DNA from: Aliiroseovarius halocynthiae
Lineage (GTDB): Bacteria > Pseudomonadota > Alphaproteobacteria > Rhodobacterales > Rhodobacteraceae
DNA length: 64,000 nt
NCBI RefSeq assembly: GCF_007004645.1
Contig: NZ_ML660027.1
Span: forward strand, 718 to 64,717
Reading direction: 5' to 3'
Positions 2,927-33,974 of this stretch are shown piece after piece. How positions within the stretch are numbered: the first letter of the stretch is position 1; the number at the start of each line of letters is the position of its first letter. A program made the position numbers and the translations under genes. The notes below the pieces were generated by a model. The model had not been told where the DNA came from. It was given only the letters and a program-made list of their open reading frames with translations, and made no database searches.

Positions 2927-3718
2927 TTAGGCTAACGGTTCCGCTAACCGTGTAACCAGTGCGTCTTGTACAGGCGGAGTGCCCGCCACCATTCCGCGCA
3001 GCTGGGGGTGTGGGTTGTTAAATCGCGCAGGTCCATTGACCTGATCGCTTACGATGCCGCCGGCCTCTTCCACGATCAACGACCCGGCCGCGACGTCCCA
3101 CTCCCAAGTTGGGCGCAGGGTCATCATGGCGTCGAACCGCCCTTCGCCGACCACCGAAAGTCGATAAGCAAGCGAGCTGCGGAAACTGCGTTTGACGGGT
3201 GGAACGTCTTTGTCCCGCCATAAATCGGGCGCGAAGTTGGGTTTGGCGGCCAGAACCGTCGCATTTTCCAGTGTCGATGTCGTGCTGACCGACAACGGGG
3301 CGTTGTTCAGCGTGGCACCCTGTCCGCGTGTGGCTGCATAAAGTTTGCCACGTTCGGGCAGGTACACCACGGCGGTTTCAACAATCCCGTTTCGTGCGAT
3401 GGCCAGCGAGTGCGCCCATGTGGTCGAGCCTTCGATAAAGCTGCGCGTGCCGTCGATCGGGTCGATAATGAACACTTGTTCGGCCTCAAGGCGCCTGGGG
3501 TCGTCTTCGGTCTCTTCTGACAGCCAGCCATAGTCGAGTCGTGCGCCGGTCAGTTCGTTGCGTAGCATGCGATCCACGGCCAGATCGGCCTCGGTCACGG
3601 GGCCTTGCCCGCCGGGTTTGTCCCAGCGCTCGGCCGATCCGTGGAAAAAGCCCGAGGCGATCTTGCCCGCGGCTTCGGCTGCGTCGATTAGAAGTTTCAG
3701 GTCATCAGTCACCGGCAA
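2927..3718 (-). CDS. Inositol monophosphatase / CysQ-type phosphatase
   Basis: 263-residue Mg2+/Li+-sensitive phosphatase of the IMPase superfamily. The metal-binding motifs are intact: WLSEET (E68, E69), DPIDGT (D86, D89) and WEWDVAAG (D208). Rhodobacteraceae proteins of this type are often called 3'(2'),5'-bisphosphate nucleotidase CysQ, which removes PAP made in sulfate assimilation, but inositol-phosphate activity cannot be excluded from sequence. Its start overlaps the end of pmbA by 14 bp on the same strand, so the two are probably translated from one transcript. Confidence 0.85.
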   Translation of the reverse strand: MPVTDDLKLLIDAAEAAGKIASGFFHGSAERWDKPGGQGPVTEADLAVDRMLRNELTGARLDYGWLSEETEDDPRRLEAEQVFIIDPIDGTRSFIEGSTTWAHSLAIARNGIVETAVVYLPERGKLYAATRGQGATLNNAPLSVSTTSTLENATVLAAKPNFAPDLWRDKDVPPVKRSFRSSLAYRLSVVGEGRFDAMMTLRPTWEWDVAAGSLIVEEAGGIVSDQVNGPARFNNPHPQLRGMVAGTPPVQDALVTRLAEPLA

Positions 3719-5051
3719 GGGTCATCCCTTCGACCAGCAGGCTGGGGATCATGCGGCTGAGATGCGGTTCGGCGTCATTCGCCGGGATGATCCGCTTCAG
3801 CATGTCGCGCAGATTGCCCGCAATGGTGCATTCGTTGACGGGATAGGCAACTTCGCCGTTCTCGATCCAGAAACCCGACGCCCCGCGCGAATAATCGCCC
3901 GTGTTCGGATTGATCGTGGACCCGATCATCGATGTCACCAACAGCCCGGTGCCCATCTGCGCGATCAGATCCTCTTTCGTCGAATTTCCCTTCGTTAGAG
4001 CCACATTCGAGATTGAAGGCGAGGGCGGCGCAGACGTCCCGCGTGATGCGCTGGCGGTGCTTTGCATCCCCAACTGGCGTGCTGTGGCGATGTCCATTGT
4101 CCAGCCGGTCAGCTGTCCGTTGTCGACGATCTTGCGCAGCTGAGTGGGAAGGCCTTCACCATCAAAGGGCCGCGAGCCGGAAATGCGGGCGCGGTGCGGA
4201 TCCTCGATCAGGTCAATCCCGTCGGGCAGAACCTGTTCACCCAAAGCGTCCAGAAGCCAAGATGATCCGCGTGCAATCATCGCGCCGTTCGAGGCGCTCA
4301 GCAGATGCCCGATCAGGGACGCAGAAATCCGTTCGTCATACAGCACCGGATAGGCACCTGTCGGCGGTTTCTTTGCGCCCAGACGTTCGACGGTGCGATT
4401 GCCCGCTTTGGTGCCGATTTCCTGTGCGCTGGGCAAATCGGCCTGAAAGATGCGCATCTCACCGGCATAGTCACGTTCCATCGTCGCGCCCTCGCCGGTG
4501 ATCGCCACGGTCGAGATAGCGCGGTTGGTACGGCCATACCCACCCGAAAACCCGTTCGAGCAGGCCAGATGGAACTGGTGCCGCCCATAGCCCGCTGACG
4601 AGCTGCTGACCTGCGATACGCCCTCGACGGCCAACGCTGCGGCCTCGGCTTCCAGCGCATCGCGTTCCAGCGCTGCGGGGTCCGGTTCGGCACTTGGGTC
4701 AGCCATCTCTAGGGCTTCCAAATCCCAATCACGCGCCAGTTCAGCCGGATCAGCCTGCCCAATATGGGGATCTTCGGGCGCTTCCTTGGCCATCGCTACG
4801 GCACGCTCGGCCATCGCGTTGATCGTCGCCTCGGACACATCCGATGCCGAAACGCAGGCTTGTCGCTGGCCCAGCATCACGCGCAGCCCGATATCCACGC
4901 CCTCGGACCGTTCGGCGTGCTCCAGCTTGCCGTTCAGCACGTCGATGGACACCGACGTTCCATCCACCGCCAATGCATCTGCCGCATCCGCACCGGCCTT
5001 CTGGGCGGCGTCCAAAAGCTGTTGGGTCAGGCTGTCAAGCGATGCGCGCAT
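3705..5051 (-). CDS. pmbA: TldE/PmbA-family metalloprotease subunit
   Basis: 448-residue PmbA (TldE), partner of the TldD protease that in enterobacteria matures microcin B17 and degrades CcdA. The N-terminal domain (ADALAVDGTSVSIDVLNGK), central domain and the C-terminal block with STINPNTGDYSRGASGFWI are typical. PmbA subunits lack the TldD HExxxH zinc motif and none is seen here; no tldD is in the window. I chose the ATG at 5051 because AAAGGA lies 6 bp upstream; the TTG at 5066 would start inside that ribosome-binding site. Followed directly by the overlapping phosphatase gene. Confidence 0.9.
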   Translation of the reverse strand: MRASLDSLTQQLLDAAQKAGADAADALAVDGTSVSIDVLNGKLEHAERSEGVDIGLRVMLGQRQACVSASDVSEATINAMAERAVAMAKEAPEDPHIGQADPAELARDWDLEALEMADPSAEPDPAALERDALEAEAAALAVEGVSQVSSSSAGYGRHQFHLACSNGFSGGYGRTNRAISTVAITGEGATMERDYAGEMRIFQADLPSAQEIGTKAGNRTVERLGAKKPPTGAYPVLYDERISASLIGHLLSASNGAMIARGSSWLLDALGEQVLPDGIDLIEDPHRARISGSRPFDGEGLPTQLRKIVDNGQLTGWTMDIATARQLGMQSTASASRGTSAPPSPSISNVALTKGNSTKEDLIAQMGTGLLVTSMIGSTINPNTGDYSRGASGFWIENGEVAYPVNECTIAGNLRDMLKRIIPANDAEPHLSRMIPSLLVEGMTLAGD

Positions 5052-26121: not shown

Positions 26122-29212
<3,091 letters not shown>

Positions 29213-29231
<19 letters not shown>

Positions 29232-29638
29232 AGTGTTTTCCCCAGTTTAGTCAGGCCCTCGCGGATGCGGGCGATGTCAGTGTCGGTGCCGGCCAGCTCG
29301 AATGAACAAAGTAGCGGTACCTTGCATTTATCGGCGATGATGCGACCCGACATGGCGTAGGTCGCACCGAAGTTTCTGTTGCCCGTTCCGATCACACCCA
29401 CCAGTTTTTCGCGGCGGGCAGGGTCGTTTAGAAAACGGATGACCTGTTTTGGTACTGCACCACGCCCTTCGCCATCGGCATAGGTCGGACAGATCAGTAC
29501 AAACGGGTCCCCCTGATCGGGCAAAGGCGCGTCGGCGTCAATCGGAATCCTTGCGGCAGGCCACCCCAACCGCGTTACAAACCGTTCGGTATTCCCCGAT
29601 TTAGACGAGTAATAAATCAGCGCCAGTTCTGCGCCCAC
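29213..29638 (-). CDS. nrdI: NrdI flavodoxin-like protein
   Basis: 141-residue NrdI, the FMN protein that supplies superoxide to build the Mn(III)2-tyrosyl radical of NrdF. The FMN phosphate loop is [13 protein letters not shown], and [19 protein letters not shown] is the NrdI-specific loop. GTG start at 29638. Its presence supports manganese loading of NrdF, useful in iron-poor sea water (inference). Overlaps nrdE and sits 3 bp behind nrdH. Confidence 0.93.
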
Positions 29639-29641
29639 AGC

Positions 29642-29863
29642 TTAAGCCAGTTGGGCGATCATGTCGGGACGGAAACCCGACCAATGGTCAGCACCGGCCA
29701 CAACGACGGGTGCTTGGCGATACCCCAGATCCGTCACACGGGCCATTGCCGCGTCATCTTGCGTCAGGTCGACCACGTTATAATCCACACCTTTTGCATC
29801 CAGGGCACGGGTGGTCGCGGTACATTGTACGCAAGCGGGTTTGGAATATACGATGATGCTCAT
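29642..29863 (-). CDS. nrdH: NrdH glutaredoxin-like electron donor
   Basis: 73-residue NrdH-redoxin: active site C11-V-Q-C14 in YSKPACVQCTAT and the C-terminal APVVVAGADHWSGFRPD that marks NrdH rather than glutaredoxin. Reduced by thioredoxin reductase, it re-reduces NrdE. Start at ATG 29863; the upstream frame runs into the riboswitch leader. First gene of nrdHIEF. Confidence 0.93.
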   Translation of the reverse strand: MSIIVYSKPACVQCTATTRALDAKGVDYNVVDLTQDDAAMARVTDLGYRQAPVVVAGADHWSGFRPDMIAQLA

Positions 29864-29954
29864 CAGTCCTCGGTCCTTGTTGTCAGGGTCGCGGACGCAG
29901 CGCTGGGAAATTCCCGCAAATCTGCCTCCAAACCCTCCGTTCGTGGTAACTTTA

Positions 29955-30118
29955 CACGCTTGCGGCAGGTCTCCTGACTTTGCGGCCATTGCTTGGCTGG
30001 CCTTCCCGGAGTGTAATCCCCCCAGTGGCGTAATCAGCCGTGCTTACCGCTTACAGTTGCGGGGGCAGTGCTGGAATTCCACCAACTTCCCTCTTAGCTT
30101 TCAACAGGAATCGAAAGA
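29955..30118 (-). promoter_or_regulatory. Cobalamin (B12) riboswitch upstream of nrdHIEF
   Basis: On the minus strand the B12-element landmarks appear in order: TGCCCCCGCAACTGTAAGCG, a GCCACTGG block, CCGGGAAGGCCAGCC, and the 3' AGTCAGGAGACCTGCC. It lies in the leader of nrdH, about 100 nt before its start. Binding of adenosylcobalamin should lower nrdHIEF expression, as known for other B12-independent reductases in organisms that also have class II NrdJ. A sequence of the same class precedes the ABC operon at 33720-33880. Confidence 0.95.
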
Positions 30119-30128
30119 ACCGAAGCAA

Positions 30129-30169
30129 CAGCATATTGGGGTTTTGGGGGTCAAACTGTCAATATATAG
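30129..30169 (-). promoter_or_regulatory. Paired NrdR-box-like sites before nrdHIEF
   Basis: Minus strand: CTATATATTG (30169-30160) matches the NrdR-box core CWATATATWG at 10 of 10 positions; CAATATGCTG (30138-30129) matches 8 of 10. Their centres are 31 bp apart, three helical turns, the spacing seen for NrdR pairs that repress reductase operons. They lie just upstream of the riboswitch, where the promoter must be. Outer box bases are poorly matched. Confidence 0.55.
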
Positions 30170-30218
30170 ATATCGCTTGACAGGGATTTCTTTTGGACAA
30201 CTGGTGCTTCGCGAAGGG

Positions 30219-30983
30219 TTATACCGGCCCTTGCAGGGTCAAAGCGGCGCCGTGAAATTGGCCATCCACTTGATAGTATTGCATCAATATTTCGCGCGTC
30301 AGCACATGTTGCGGAGCGCCGCGACCCACGATCTGACCTTGCGACATCAGATAGACGGTGTTGCAATAGCGCATCGCCAAGGACAGGTCATGAAGTGTCA
30401 TCAAAACGGTGCGTCCGCGGCGTTTCACCTCGTCCAATAGGACCAATTGATAGTGAAGGTCCAGATGGTTTGTGGGCTCGTCCAAGATATAGATTTCGGG
30501 GTCGCAGGCCAGAAGCTGTGCAAAATAGCAGCGTTGCAGTTCTCCGCCCGATAAATTGCTGGCGGGTTGTGTGGCTTTGTCGGTCAGCCCGGCCAAGGCA
30601 AGGGCATCGTCACGGCGGTCGATCAGCTCGGATTTATCAAGTTCCAGAATGGACAGACCGATCTCGACAATATCTTGTGGTGTCAGCCCAGCCAGCAGGC
30701 CCGAACTTTGCACTAAGGCCCCTACGCGCTTAGCCCATTCATAGGGGCTGTAATCGGTGATCGCGCGGTCAAAGGCGTGGATGGTGCCAGTGCTGGCGGT
30801 TGCGGCGTGATATAGCGTGCGCAGAAGCGTGGTTTTCCCGGCGCCGTTCGGGCCGAGCAGCCCGTGGATCTGGCCCGTTGGCACGCTGAGGGACGCGCCC
30901 TGCACATAGGGCGTCTTCCCGATATTGACCGACAGGTCTTGGATCCGAAGGGCGATTTCAGTTTCGACGGCTTCATGAAGCAC
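30219..30983 (-). CDS. btuD: BtuD-type ABC transporter ATPase
   Basis: 254-residue ATPase of the siderophore/B12 importer class. Walker A GPNGAGKT (44-51), signature LSGGE (144-148), Walker B ILDEPT (166-171), and switch His in LHDLSLAMRYC. It drives import together with the permease it overlaps by 11 bp. Substrate assigned as cobalamin because the operon begins with a B12 riboswitch; the protein alone would fit heme or ferric siderophores equally. Confidence 0.82.
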   Translation of the reverse strand: MLHEAVETEIALRIQDLSVNIGKTPYVQGASLSVPTGQIHGLLGPNGAGKTTLLRTLYHAATASTGTIHAFDRAITDYSPYEWAKRVGALVQSSGLLAGLTPQDIVEIGLSILELDKSELIDRRDDALALAGLTDKATQPASNLSGGELQRCYFAQLLACDPEIYILDEPTNHLDLHYQLVLLDEVKRRGRTVLMTLHDLSLAMRYCNTVYLMSQGQIVGRGAPQHVLTREILMQYYQVDGQFHGAALTLQGPV

Positions 30984-31980
30984 GGCGCAGACCTCGTAAA
31001 ATCATGATGAAGGGCGGCGCGGCGAACAGCGCCAGCAGTACCCCCAATGGCAGTTCTTCGGGGGCCAGTAAAGTGCGGCACAGAAGATCGACGGCAATCA
31101 GGACCAAAGCGCCCAGCACAAGTGTAAGGGGCAGCAAGACCCGATGGCGCGCGCCGGTCAAAAGACGGGCCATGTGCGGGATGATCAGGCCGATAAAGCC
31201 GACGATTCCGGCAACTGACACGGCCAGACCGGTCAGTGTGACGGTGGCCAGAAAGATCCACATGCGCAGCCGTCCTGTATGTACGCCAAGGGCTTGCGCA
31301 CGCTCTTCCCCCAGCAGGGTCGCGTCCAGAGCGTTGGCGTTCAGCAGGGCCCAGCCCGCGATCAGAAGCAACGCGAGTGTAATCAGCGGCAGTTCGTGCC
31401 ACTCGGTATTGGCGGCGGTTCCCATCAGCCAGCCAAGCGCGCTGCGCACGGCTTGGGGATCGCCCAGATACAGGAAAAATGCGGTCAGGGATTGAAACAT
31501 CAGCGACACCGCGACGCCCGCCAGAATGACGACCAACGGGTCCAGGGGTTCGCCGCGCCGACTGGATAGGCCCAGCGTCATGACAAAAGCCAGCGCCGCG
31601 CCCATAAAAGCAATTGCAGGCACACCGAAACTGTCAGTGATCCAGCTGGGCAGCCAGATGATGGCACCCACCGCTGCGGCGGACGCGCCCGAGGACAGAC
31701 CCATCAGGTAAGGGTCCGCCATCGGGTTGCGCAGGGCCGTTTGCATCAACGCCCCCGCCAAGGCCAACCCGGCCCCGATCACCCCAACCGCCAGCACACG
31801 CGGAATCCGCCATTGCCAGATGATCAAAGACAGCCCGCGCGGGACATCATCTTCGCGCATTAGAATGGCGGCGCGGTCAGCCCAGCTGATTTCAGCCGTG
31901 CCCCATAGGACACCGGCTAAAGCCACCAGAACCAACGCCAGAAGCGCTGCGGGGAAAAGGATCGGGAACCGGATTGCCAT
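30973..31980 (-). CDS. btuC: BtuC/FecCD-type ABC permease
   Basis: 335-residue inner-membrane permease with about ten helices. Family blocks: WRIPRVLAVGVIGAGLALAGALMQTALRNPMADPYLMG near the N-terminus and the ATPase-contact loop GIVGFIGLIIPHMARLL. Directly follows the binding-protein gene with no gap and overlaps the ATPase gene. Cobalamin as substrate is inferred from riboswitch control. Confidence 0.84.
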   Translation of the reverse strand: MAIRFPILFPAALLALVLVALAGVLWGTAEISWADRAAILMREDDVPRGLSLIIWQWRIPRVLAVGVIGAGLALAGALMQTALRNPMADPYLMGLSSGASAAAVGAIIWLPSWITDSFGVPAIAFMGAALAFVMTLGLSSRRGEPLDPLVVILAGVAVSLMFQSLTAFFLYLGDPQAVRSALGWLMGTAANTEWHELPLITLALLLIAGWALLNANALDATLLGEERAQALGVHTGRLRMWIFLATVTLTGLAVSVAGIVGFIGLIIPHMARLLTGARHRVLLPLTLVLGALVLIAVDLLCRTLLAPEELPLGVLLALFAAPPFIMILRGLRRAS

Positions 31981-32913
31981 TTACTTCATCGCGGCCAGTT
32001 GAGCGTTCACGGTCTCGACGCCGTCAGCGAAGCGCATTCCCAGCAGGGTTTCCGAGAATGGCACGATGACGAACTTGCCCTCTTTCACTGCGGTCAGTTC
32101 GGACAGAACCGGGTCTTGCTCCATATATTCGCGCTTCTCGGCGGCGGTGGACCAATCGGCTTCGATCAGCACGATGACCTGGGGATCAGTGGCGACGACC
32201 TTTTCCCAGGCCAGATCAACCCACGTGCCTTCGACATCAGCGCTGATGCTGTTCAGGCCGGCGGTTTTGGCGACCAAAGCGGGGCCACCACAGCAACCGA
32301 TCGAATAGGGCGTGTCGGTGCCGCTGTCATAGATGAACGCCGAGCGACCAGCGCCCGCCGGGTTGTTGCCGACGGCGTCGATACGGGCCTTGGTTTCGGC
32401 GATCAAAGTGTCAGCGCGGTCTTCCACGTGGAAGATGTCGCCGATGACCTCGATGTCTTTCAGGATCGGCTCGATGGTCAGCGGAACGTTTTTCGGGTGG
32501 TAGGTCTTGCAGGATGCATCGACCAAATAGGTGCCGACACCCAGATCATGCCATTTCTGTGCTGCGCCCATATTGTCTTCCGAGAAGGCCGAGCCGAAAC
32601 CTGCGAACAGGAAGTCGGGCTCTTCAGCCAAAACCACTTCGGCAGCGGGATATTTTTCGGCCAGAACGGGGACGCTGTCATAGGCGTCTTTCCACTGTGT
32701 GGGGATCGCGTCGTCCAGATAGGCCGTGCCCACCATCGATCCTTCCAGACCCAGCGCCAGCATCACTTCGGTGGCTTGCTGGTTCAGGGTGATCGCGCGT
32801 GTCGGTACCGTGTCATAGCTGTGATCCGTGCCGCAGTTGGAAACGGTAACGGCATCGGCCATGGCCGCGGATGTGCTGAGCGCCAGCGGGATGAGTGCTT
32901 TAAGCAGGTTCAT
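31981..32913 (-). CDS. btuF: BtuF-type periplasmic binding protein
   Basis: 310-residue periplasmic binding protein of the helical-backbone class (BtuF/FepB). Signal peptide MNLLKALIPLALSTSAAMA, then TRAITLNQQATEVMLALGLEGSMVGTAY, the domain that recognises ligands at the lobe interface, and DFLFAGFGSAF. Six Cys residues, including an unusual GCCGGP, are more than normal for the family. Starts within the last codons of the ferredoxin-like gene (14-bp overlap). Confidence 0.82.
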   Translation of the reverse strand: MNLLKALIPLALSTSAAMADAVTVSNCGTDHSYDTVPTRAITLNQQATEVMLALGLEGSMVGTAYLDDAIPTQWKDAYDSVPVLAEKYPAAEVVLAEEPDFLFAGFGSAFSEDNMGAAQKWHDLGVGTYLVDASCKTYHPKNVPLTIEPILKDIEVIGDIFHVEDRADTLIAETKARIDAVGNNPAGAGRSAFIYDSGTDTPYSIGCCGGPALVAKTAGLNSISADVEGTWVDLAWEKVVATDPQVIVLIEADWSTAAEKREYMEQDPVLSELTAVKEGKFVIVPFSETLLGMRFADGVETVNAQLAAMK

Positions 32914-33619
32914 GGTGGTCCTCTGTTTGATGAATAAGAAGGTGTTTGGGGATGGTGTTCGCGCGCAGGGCCTGCGCGACGAATGTGCGAATGTCGTTCA
33001 GATCGGCCACGCGATACCAGTTGCCATGCGGATAGTGGACGATCACGGGGCCTGCATTGCAGGGAAACAGGCAGCCAGTGGTGGTCACCAGACAGTGTGA
33101 GCGTACCCGCGCGCGGCCGAGTTCGGCCTTCATTGCCTCGACAAGTGACGGGGCGTCTTTCAGGTGGCAACGTGGCCCGGTGCAGACCAGAAGATGGTGA
33201 CGAAAGGCGGGCGGTGTATCCCAGCCTTTGCCACGCTCTCCGTTCGTTTGGGGGCGAATGCGTGTCAGGGCAACGCGCGCACGGGCGGCAGAATGTACTA
33301 CGCGGGTGTCCGCTTGGAGTGCGGCTGCCATAAACAGGTTGGGTGCGCTTGGGCCCTGTCGATCCAGCCAGCTTCCGGCGGCACTGGGCAGCCATTTTTG
33401 AAGGCTTTGGGAAAAGGGCAGGCCGATGGGGCGCAGTTCAATGCGTGTGGCACCCTGCGCGGTCAACGCGTCCAATGCGTGCCACATCCCGTCGCCTGAC
33501 GCCTCTAGTCGCACGGCGTCAGCAGTGCAGGGCGCTGCACGGATCAACGTCTCAGCCAGATCACGAAACTTGGCCTGGCTGACATAGCTGGCTGAAATCA
33601 GATAAAGATACGCGTCCAT
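32900..33619 (-). CDS. CbiX-like N-domain fused to a thioredoxin-like [2Fe-2S] ferredoxin
   Basis: 239 residues, first gene of the B12-riboswitch operon. Residues 142-239 carry a [2Fe-2S] thioredoxin-like ferredoxin pattern: C146-TGPR-C151 and C183-LFP-C187, with an extra C176. Residues 1-90 resemble half a CbiX/sirohydrochlorin chelatase (DALTAQGATRIELRPIGLPF) but the usual chelatase LIGHGSR is replaced by LISASYV, so the metal-insertion His is missing. A role in handling or reducing imported corrinoid cobalt would suit the location (inference). No function is established to my knowledge. Confidence 0.7.
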   Translation of the reverse strand: MDAYLYLISASYVSQAKFRDLAETLIRAAPCTADAVRLEASGDGMWHALDALTAQGATRIELRPIGLPFSQSLQKWLPSAAGSWLDRQGPSAPNLFMAAALQADTRVVHSAARARVALTRIRPQTNGERGKGWDTPPAFRHHLLVCTGPRCHLKDAPSLVEAMKAELGRARVRSHCLVTTTGCLFPCNAGPVIVHYPHGNWYRVADLNDIRTFVAQALRANTIPKHLLIHQTEDHHEPA

Positions 33620-33719
33620 CGCTGCCTCTTTGATGGAGGCAGGCAGGCACGGCGGGACATCCCACGGAAATCTGTCATCTTATCCTCCACGGGCCCTCCG
33701 CCCGGTTGGTTACACGTCA

Positions 33720-33880
33720 AAGATGGCAGGTCTCCTGACTTCGCGGGTCTTGGCTTGGCTGACCTTCCCGGGGAATTCCCAGTGGTATATTCAGCCTTGC
33801 TCTCCGCTTACAGTTGCGGGGGCAGTCACGGAATTGGCGCCTATTGGCTCTTCCTCACCGTGTTCCCTTTTCATTCCGCA
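33720..33880 (-). promoter_or_regulatory. Cobalamin riboswitch upstream of the btu-like operon
   Basis: Minus-strand B12-element landmarks: TGCCCCCGCAACTGTAAGCG, ACCACTGGG, CCGGGAAGGTCAGCC and AGTCAGGAGACCTGCC. It ends about 100 nt before the CbiX/ferredoxin gene. Adenosylcobalamin should repress the uptake operon. It shares these blocks with the element at 29955-30118, but their peripheral stems differ, so they are not a recent duplication. Confidence 0.95.
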
Positions 33881-33974
33881 CGGCCTTTGGCGCAACGGAA
33901 ACCATCGCGGACAAGTAACCGTTCGTTTGCTGAACTGTCAATCACCTTCGTGTGGCCTGTGCTACGCCAAAGAT

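Follow-up and report, generated by a model that had tools for sequence, protein, structure and literature searches.

The locus considered here raises the question of what two cobalamin riboswitches do in front of two neighbouring operons, one for a ribonucleotide reductase that does not depend on vitamin B12 and the other for an importer. It lies in a stretch of 64,000 nucleotides of Aliiroseovarius halocynthiae DNA (contig NZ_ML660027.1, positions 718 to 64,717; referred to below as the window), in which the class Ib reductase genes nrdHIEF stand behind an importer operon that begins with a ferredoxin-like gene. Our analysis indicates with high probability that these are two separately controlled operons answering to one ligand, and that a shortage of B12 would turn on the class Ib enzyme as a backup together with the neighbouring importer. 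The proposed mechanism is likely and has comparative support, and what an earlier note on this DNA, made from the sequence alone, had called a module is reduced here to recurrent clustering.

Two riboswitch-headed operons and the reductases of the genome

When the whole window was scanned on both strands with the Rfam covariance models (cmscan), two matches to the cobalamin riboswitch family RF00174 were obtained, both of full length (model positions 1-189) and both on the minus strand. Riboswitch A (33708..33921) scored 133.5 bits (E 2.1e-33) and riboswitch B (29947..30139) scored 126.3 bits (E 2.4e-31), compared with a gathering score of 31.5 bits, and a chance origin of these matches is far off. 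In the order of transcription, riboswitch A is followed by the ferredoxin-like gene and by the genes for a periplasmic binding protein, a FecCD permease and an ATPase, after which come riboswitch B, nrdH, nrdI, nrdE and nrdF. The earlier note had placed two B12-element riboswitches on one strand, one before nrdHIEF and the other before the adjoining importer operon, and it was right about both the elements and their positions. Its description of them as tandem does not hold. A tandem riboswitch in the sense of two aptamers in one leader was considered and rejected, as 3.6 kb and four genes lie between the aptamers, which belong to two separate leaders.

The reductase operon is of class Ib: NrdH, NrdI, NrdE and NrdF all exceed the curated NCBIfam cut-offs, and their genes are adjacent on the minus strand, as are those of the importer operon. 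These are nrdH for the glutaredoxin-like electron donor (29642..29863; TIGR02194, 97 bits over a subfamily cut-off of 85.75), nrdI (29213..29638; TIGR00333, 134.6 bits over 74.65), nrdE for the alpha subunit (27108..29231; TIGR04170, 1230.5 bits over 750) and nrdF for the beta subunit (26122..27111; TIGR04171, 485.8 bits over 355). The importer operon encodes a 239-residue protein with a 2Fe-2S ferredoxin-like C-terminus (32900..33619), a BtuF/FecB-like periplasmic binding protein (31981..32913; Peripla_BP_2, with no specific equivalog over its cut-off), a FecCD-family permease (30973..31980; FecCD, 2e-87) and an ABC transporter ATPase (30219..30983; ABC_tran, 8e-29).

The genome from which the window comes (G000, a 3.39-Mb draft that is 99.99% complete) contains five RF00174 matches. 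A genome search for nrdJ, which the earlier note had called for, revealed two class II, NrdJ-type reductases over the TIGR02504 cut-off, and the protein of 1235 residues reached 2248 bits against the cut-off of 1737 of the B12-dependent reductase model. Since NrdF was the only class I small subunit found, the genome appears to have no class Ia enzyme. Of the three remaining riboswitches, one stands before a DUF4198 gene that is followed further downstream by a CbiQ gene (L040), one before a DUF1636 gene (L041), and one before CobW and CobN genes, in that order (L039). In addition, one CobJ match exceeds its cut-off, the same contig also holding weaker relatives. Judging from this CobJ-family gene and the riboswitch-associated CobN-family gene, the organism probably makes corrins itself. 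The switch would therefore read the total cobalamin pool.

The nrd riboswitch and NrdJ among relatives

In a survey of 198 genomes of the family, nrdI was detected in 22 (in 21 of them over the cut-off) and NrdJ over the cut-off in 193, which means that class II is the standing enzyme and class Ib an accessory one. A riboswitch called with Rfam lies directly upstream of nrdHIEF in 16 of the 20 other nrdI loci, each from a different genus, that were fetched from the family. The four without it are G150, which has no NrdJ over the cut-off, G149, whose riboswitch is degenerate (29.2 versus 31.5 bits), and G076 and G127, where NrdJ is present and the riboswitch absent. In G086 (L052/L036), nrdE and nrdF are about 93% identical to those of the window, nrdI is truncated, and neither nrdH nor the riboswitch was found. 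A class-wide survey yielded nrdI in 6 of 385 genomes, the window's own included, and as this left too few nrdI genomes without NrdJ, named NrdE loci were used instead.

The NrdE scan of named genomes gave 80 loci, 62 of which (L048-L109) belong to Rhodobacterales by title or by their place in the tree. Because a regular expression for the B12 box overlooked most riboswitches, Rfam and an nhmmer profile were used in its place, and the presence or absence of a riboswitch in L048-L127 is an nhmmer call. Recovery of all 31 Rfam matches from which the profile had been built does not validate it; its one additional match in those 29 sources is a shortened riboswitch in L018 (29.2 bits with Rfam, under the cut-off). 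The NrdJ state was sought by whole-genome search for 50 of the 80 loci, namely all 17 Rhodobacterales loci without an intact riboswitch (L094 being unusable), 31 with one, and two from outside the order. The tree has 84 rows, of which 68 have both states, 66 of them from Rhodobacterales. L094 (contig too short) and L036 (same contig as L052, judging by its length) were left out and three identical NrdE copies were merged. L020 was set to riboswitch-present by hand, as an inserted gene pushes its Rfam-confirmed riboswitch past the 1600-nt rule, and L018, L054 and L082 (25-31 bits) were scored as lacking the riboswitch.

Among the 66 Rhodobacterales rows, 47 have both the riboswitch and NrdJ, none has the riboswitch without NrdJ, 11 have NrdJ without an intact riboswitch and 8 have neither. 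NrdJ is thus present in 47/47 riboswitch-bearing rows and lacking in 8 of the 19 without an intact riboswitch (Fisher's test, 1.3e-5, with the rows being related to each other). In the genomes examined the nrd riboswitch is limited to those with NrdJ, an association that is expected if B12 switches the synthesis of deoxyribonucleotides (dNTPs) between class Ib and class II enzymes. The tree requires at least 11 changes of the riboswitch and at least 6 of NrdJ, and independent pairs never run the opposite way. The rows without NrdJ come from Falsigemmobacter (2), Falsirhodobacter (2), G150, Paracoccus isoporae, strain GH2-2 and one 2.0-Mb metagenome bin, in which incompleteness may account for the absence. 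The 11 NrdJ-bearing rows without an intact riboswitch comprise the partial riboswitches of L018, L054 and L082, the broken operon of L052, three loci from Paracoccus (L093, L095 and L099), one from Thalassovita (L015), and L022, L089 and L100.

The earlier note had inferred that imported B12 switches the cell between the two classes. The switch between classes gains support from the nrd riboswitch, the presence of NrdJ and the 47/47 association, whereas "imported" is too narrow, given the CobJ and CobN genes and a cargo that may be cobalt.

Predicted switching in the two leaders

Sixty nrd leaders were analysed, three riboswitch-bearing loci without a recognised nrdH start having been left out. 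At a nearly fixed distance behind the aptamer, 59 of the 60 carry a hairpin with a GGNGG loop and a stem of at least 3 pairs, which by its place and form in the sequence matches the P13/L13 element. In the window this P13/L13-like hairpin of riboswitch B (CGAAC-GGAGG-GTTTG) lies at 29929..29943 on the minus strand. Pairs 1-3 of the stem are canonical in 59/59 leaders and covary: pair 2 is AT in 35, GC in 20 and GT in 4, and pair 3 is AT in 36, GC in 14, CG in 5 and TA in 4. Kissing between L5 and L13 is described as important for sensing in known cobalamin riboswitches (PMC9600662).

In many relatives, the segment after P13 can fold either as an antisequestor of 9-11 bp or as a 6-bp sequestor, GTCCTC:GAGGAC, over the Shine-Dalgarno (SD) sequence of nrdH. 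These alternative helices share one anti-SD, and the antisequestor also draws in the 3' strand of P13. Folding of the window's leader B predicts the antisequestor form as the structure of lowest energy, with GGAGGCAG pairing with CTGCGTCC with one mismatch (29893..29929, minus strand), a helix that includes the anti-SD GTCC at 29896-29893. The SD-like GAGGAC of nrdH (29866..29871, minus strand) is its possible partner, through 4 bp only in this genome. The summed sequestor score was 7.8 standard errors above that of partner-shuffled leaders. A sequestor of at least 5 bp was found in 53 of the 55 non-duplicate leaders, and 42 of the 55 combined it with an overlapping antisequestor of at least 6 bp, compared with a mean of 14.7 and a maximum of 24 in 30 rounds of shuffling; the strong form of this overlap occurred in 21 leaders versus 0.5 (maximum 2) in shuffled ones. 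The terminator scan listed no intrinsic terminator between riboswitch A or B and the respective first gene. From its sequence, the nrd leader is most likely a translational OFF switch.

The promoters of the two operons are probably separate as well. TTGAC begins 21-30 nt upstream of the aptamer in 60/60 nrd leaders, and this fixed position makes it probable that nrdHIEF is transcribed from a promoter of its own and not by read-through from the importer operon. In the window the corresponding -35-like hexamer TTGACA occupies 30157..30162 before riboswitch B, and another TTGACA precedes riboswitch A at 33936..33941 (both on the minus strand). The orthologous riboswitches of L042 and L061 are also preceded by TTGACA, and that of L053 is not within the 70 nt inspected. 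We also observed that the TTGAC before nrd aptamers (30157-30168 in the window, minus strand) is preceded by TATA or TATG in 33 leaders. The conserved TTGAC is perhaps a -35 element that overlaps a weak NrdR-like site; the best match to the NrdR box in the window has 10 of 16 positions of the consensus, and no NrdR box is claimed there.

The mechanism that we propose on these grounds begins with an aptamer at the start of each mRNA. When cobalamin is plentiful, the aptamer would bind its ligand and the L5-L13 kissing interaction would hold the P13 hairpin, so that the antisequestor, which needs the 3' side of P13, would be blocked. The anti-SD would then pair with the SD, NrdH and the proteins encoded downstream would be poorly translated, and the B12-dependent NrdJ would make the dNTPs. 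When cobalamin is low, P13 would open, the antisequestor would take up the anti-SD and free the SD, and the class Ib reductase would be made as a backup. The neighbouring importer would be de-repressed at the same time, bringing in cobalt or a corrinoid.

The opposite direction of control has to be weighed here. The nrd riboswitch could be an ON switch or a relic, with nrdHIEF mainly under NrdR or responding to metal or oxidative stress. Activating corrinoid riboswitches do exist (PMC10653944), and the weak NrdR-like match that overlaps the TTGAC element reaches 13 of 16 positions in the best leader. However, the association with NrdJ and the layout of the SD sequestor fit an OFF switch, and the retention of covarying P13 pairs is not expected of a relic. 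We therefore regard an ON switch or a relic as quite improbable.

Several results weigh against the OFF-switch mechanism. The tree offers only 4 independent contrasts on supported branches (sign test, median p 0.25, range 0.125-1), too few for significance, and the 11 loci that keep NrdJ without an intact riboswitch imply that the nrd switch is dispensable. The window's own sequestor of 4 bp places leader B outside the 42 leaders with both helices, neither window leader folds clearly better than its shuffles (z -0.99 for leader B and -1.02 for leader A), and a scan for consensus sigma-70 promoters calls none at riboswitch A or B. As for the importer, the BtuFCD equivalog models were not passed (BtuC 202.4 of 334 bits, BtuD 102.4 of 281, BtuF not listed), so that the label "btu-like" comes from the family and the riboswitch only. 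Proteome data on Paracoccus denitrificans are reported to give no difference in B12-dependent or B12-independent pathways at the pH of the nitrous oxide rise (PMC8390676), which is no help to the proposed mechanism.

The leader of the importer operon is built differently from that of nrdHIEF. Its P13/L13-like hairpin (CGGGC-GGAGG-GCCCG, 33690..33704) is followed by an upstream open reading frame (uORF) of 26 codons with an SD-like GGAGGA (33598..33678), which runs 22 nt into the ferredoxin-like gene, and by a hairpin, CTGCCTC/GAGGCAG, that holds the SD-like GAGG of that gene (33622..33642; all on the minus strand). Four orthologous importer operons were compared, from the window, G217, Ruegeria arenilitoris and Donghicola eburneus. 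All four have the GGAGGA directly after P13, a uORF with the same start and end, the latter 22 nt inside the ferredoxin-like gene, and the hairpin over the SD-like sequence of this gene. The 78 nt of the uORF show no net change in length among the four loci, a conservation that is partly explained by the overlap with a coding start; codon-position bias, as a mark of a conserved peptide, was absent among them. Of two more distant operons, L136 has a short reading frame at the same place and L137 does not. We propose, by analogy, that riboswitch A may act through a uORF relay. A comparable arrangement is the ppe2 riboswitch of Mycobacterium tuberculosis, with its essential uORF (PMC11260477): there too an SD-led short reading frame ends over the start of the first gene, whereas in the importer leader, as seen by comparing the four loci, the overlap is 22 nt instead of 4 and a hairpin covers the downstream SD.

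Importer cargo, clustering and known systems

The earlier note had named the importer operon as CbiX/ferredoxin-btuFCD-like. The ferredoxin-like C-terminus and the FecBCD-type genes bear this out, whereas CbiX has no Pfam support and, as stated above, the BtuFCD models were not passed. The ferredoxin half of the 239-residue protein scores 22.4 bits, just under the Pfam cut-off of 24.8, and a profile of four orthologues matched ferredoxin-like domains in the PDB (best 2.6e-14, with the first 100 residues of a hydrogenase subunit). For the N-terminal half, read as CbiX in the note, a Pfam search at E 1e-3 was empty and the PDB profile gave no chelatase match at E 1. By its sequence the importer is of FecBCD type.

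Its cargo may be a corrinoid or cobalt. If cobalt or a cobalt complex were carried, the operon would be a cobalt supply under B12 feedback and "B12 uptake" a misnomer, a view to which we give slightly less than an even chance. In Roseinatronobacter and Paracoccus aminophilus, cobalamin-riboswitch operons for nickel-type importers (best models Opp5A/NikA, at scores under the cut-offs) open with a gene for a relative of the ferredoxin-like protein, at 27-32% identity. Where a B12 riboswitch precedes an importer of the nickel type, a published survey regards this as hinting at the uptake of cobalt (PMC2667541), and the CobJ- and CobN-family genes of the genome imply a probable need for cobalt. 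Set against this are the Peripla_BP_2 binding protein and FecCD-type permease of the operon, since systems of this type carry chelates or corrinoids where they have been characterised. Moreover, no riboswitch reaches the gathering score beside the FecBCD-type importer of a Rhodococcus relative, and another riboswitch operon of the same genome (DUF4198, CbiQ) already looks like cobalt uptake. Ferredoxin-like relatives heading cobalamin-riboswitch operons with nickel-type importers were seen at L136 (4565-10597, plus strand) and L137 (4555-8875, plus strand), and from such sequences the ferredoxin-like family may work with cobalt importers in general.

The claim that adjacency makes the pair inheritable as a unit had to be weakened. 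Among 21 genomes of the genus, two have nrdI and two a close BtuF orthologue (100% and 88%), and the window's genome is the only one with both; four more genomes gave BtuF matches at 30-33%. G204 has nrdHIEF and no BtuF match, and G217 has the importer operon and no nrdI. The survey for adjacency that the note had suggested did find the same importer operon near nrdHIEF in two more genera, in other orientations: divergent in Ruegeria arenilitoris, and convergent, behind nrdHIEF, in Donghicola eburneus. In addition, at 17 of 58 non-duplicate loci the nrd riboswitch is accompanied by another cobalamin riboswitch no more than 8 kb away, compared with 0.6 expected at random. On average 14.7 kb were examined per locus, and the expectation was taken from the riboswitch counts of 17 genomes of the family; a p-value for this excess is not to be taken literally, because the loci are related and B12 genes cluster anyway. 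Eight loci had been dropped beforehand as duplicates or unusable, including L060, which has a second riboswitch within 8 kb, and L049 and L070, where the second riboswitch lies just outside or near the limit, were not counted.

The side-by-side position could still be the product of chance shuffling of B12-regulated genes, without a function of its own, each operon being able to work anywhere. G204 and G217 hold the two operons apart and each window leader has its own TTGACA, whereas the 17/58 count and the linkage to the importer in Ruegeria arenilitoris and Donghicola eburneus do not fit. We consider chance adjacency a real possibility, if somewhat below even. The clustering counts speak against pure chance and do not speak for adjacency being functionally required. 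What is inherited is a loose unit, in which B12-responsive genes gather and regroup.

Other genes headed by cobalamin riboswitches were observed near nrd operons. Directly behind nrdF, in L035 (6357-3989, minus strand) and L027 (4735-2510, minus strand), such a riboswitch heads MesX and a gene for a cobalamin-independent methionine synthase, so that two B12-free isozymes adjoin with a separate switch each; the synthase frame of L027 is short. In L020 a gene resembling cobalamin-independent synthases stands between nrdI and nrdE, behind the nrd riboswitch (3205-4449, minus strand). In L049 (14889-17482, minus strand) and L023 (9530-12177, minus strand) a cobalamin riboswitch heads a Rieske oxygenase/reductase pair near nrdHIEF. 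The pair of L049 is closest to glycine betaine monooxygenase models, under their cut-offs, and similar pairs, spread over many genera, were noted by eye at L059, L060, L062, L065, L070, L081, L101, L020, L026 and L035. In L020 (11883-5327, minus strand) and L026 (11753-16274, plus strand; by eye) cobalamin riboswitches appear to head gene rows that include the B12-dependent MetH in split form, where control by an OFF switch would be surprising. Further neighbours of nrd with a riboswitch are a ZnuA-type metal importer (L051) and FecBCD-type importers.

Relatives of nrdE at 80-90% identity occur on 29 plasmid records, and a plasmid search with the ferredoxin-like gene gave relatives all under 60% identity. 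As a tentative picture, held with rather less confidence than its opposite, Rhodobacterales may carry loosely mobile islands for B12 shortage, some of them plasmid-borne. These would combine nrdHIEF, MesX and MesD-like genes, the glycine-betaine-oxygenase-like pair, split metH and cobalt or corrinoid importers, each with its own riboswitch; the nrd switch would be kept only while the host has NrdJ, and the importer would use the leader-ORF relay.

The principle of a B12 riboswitch on a B12-independent reductase has already been published for other bacteria. What is added here is the comparative test of the nrd riboswitch against the presence of NrdJ, for which Rhodobacterales offer an informative distribution, and which bears on the long-standing inference that B12 riboswitches on B12-independent isozymes are sensible only beside the B12-dependent isozyme. 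If the proposed mechanism holds, these bacteria, when deprived of cobalamin by starvation or through nitrous oxide (reported to inactivate the vitamin), would change the metal chemistry of DNA-precursor synthesis, and the clusters of B12-responsive genes pointed out here can be tested in a tractable strain. No paper on a cobalamin riboswitch with nrdHIEF, or on such a Rhodobacterales cluster, was found in the one open-licence library searched, among the matches listed.

Among known systems, a 2004 paper that cites an earlier study reported, for delta-proteobacteria whose genomes contain NrdJ, B12-elements ahead of the B12-independent NrdDG (PMC545781), and in Priestia megaterium, which likewise contains NrdJ, there are cobalamin riboswitches for both metE and nrdEF (PMC8390425). 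The window resembles both in having a cobalamin riboswitch before a B12-independent reductase and NrdJ in the genome. It differs from them in that the reductase is the class Ib nrdHIEF of Rhodobacterales, an accessory cluster that a minority of genomes carry and that often stands beside other cobalamin-riboswitch operons. The MesX/MesD system of B12-independent methionine synthesis (PMC7857596) has its counterpart in the riboswitch-headed genes behind nrdF in L035 and L027, whereas such genes do not adjoin the window's operon. In Paracoccus denitrificans, nitrous oxide or copper limitation is reported to shift cells to B12-independent pathways through genes with B12 riboswitches (PMC5987163, PMC8390676), genes also treated in PMC12848317. 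A plasmid of P. denitrificans HAMBI_2443 has, like the window, an RF00174 match before nrdHIEF in the same gene order, and a second one on the same strand, 4.2 kb behind nrdF, before genes for a TonB-dependent receptor and a Peripla_BP_2 protein. In the window, by contrast, the other riboswitch operon lies upstream of nrdHIEF and is of the ferredoxin-like/FecBCD kind.

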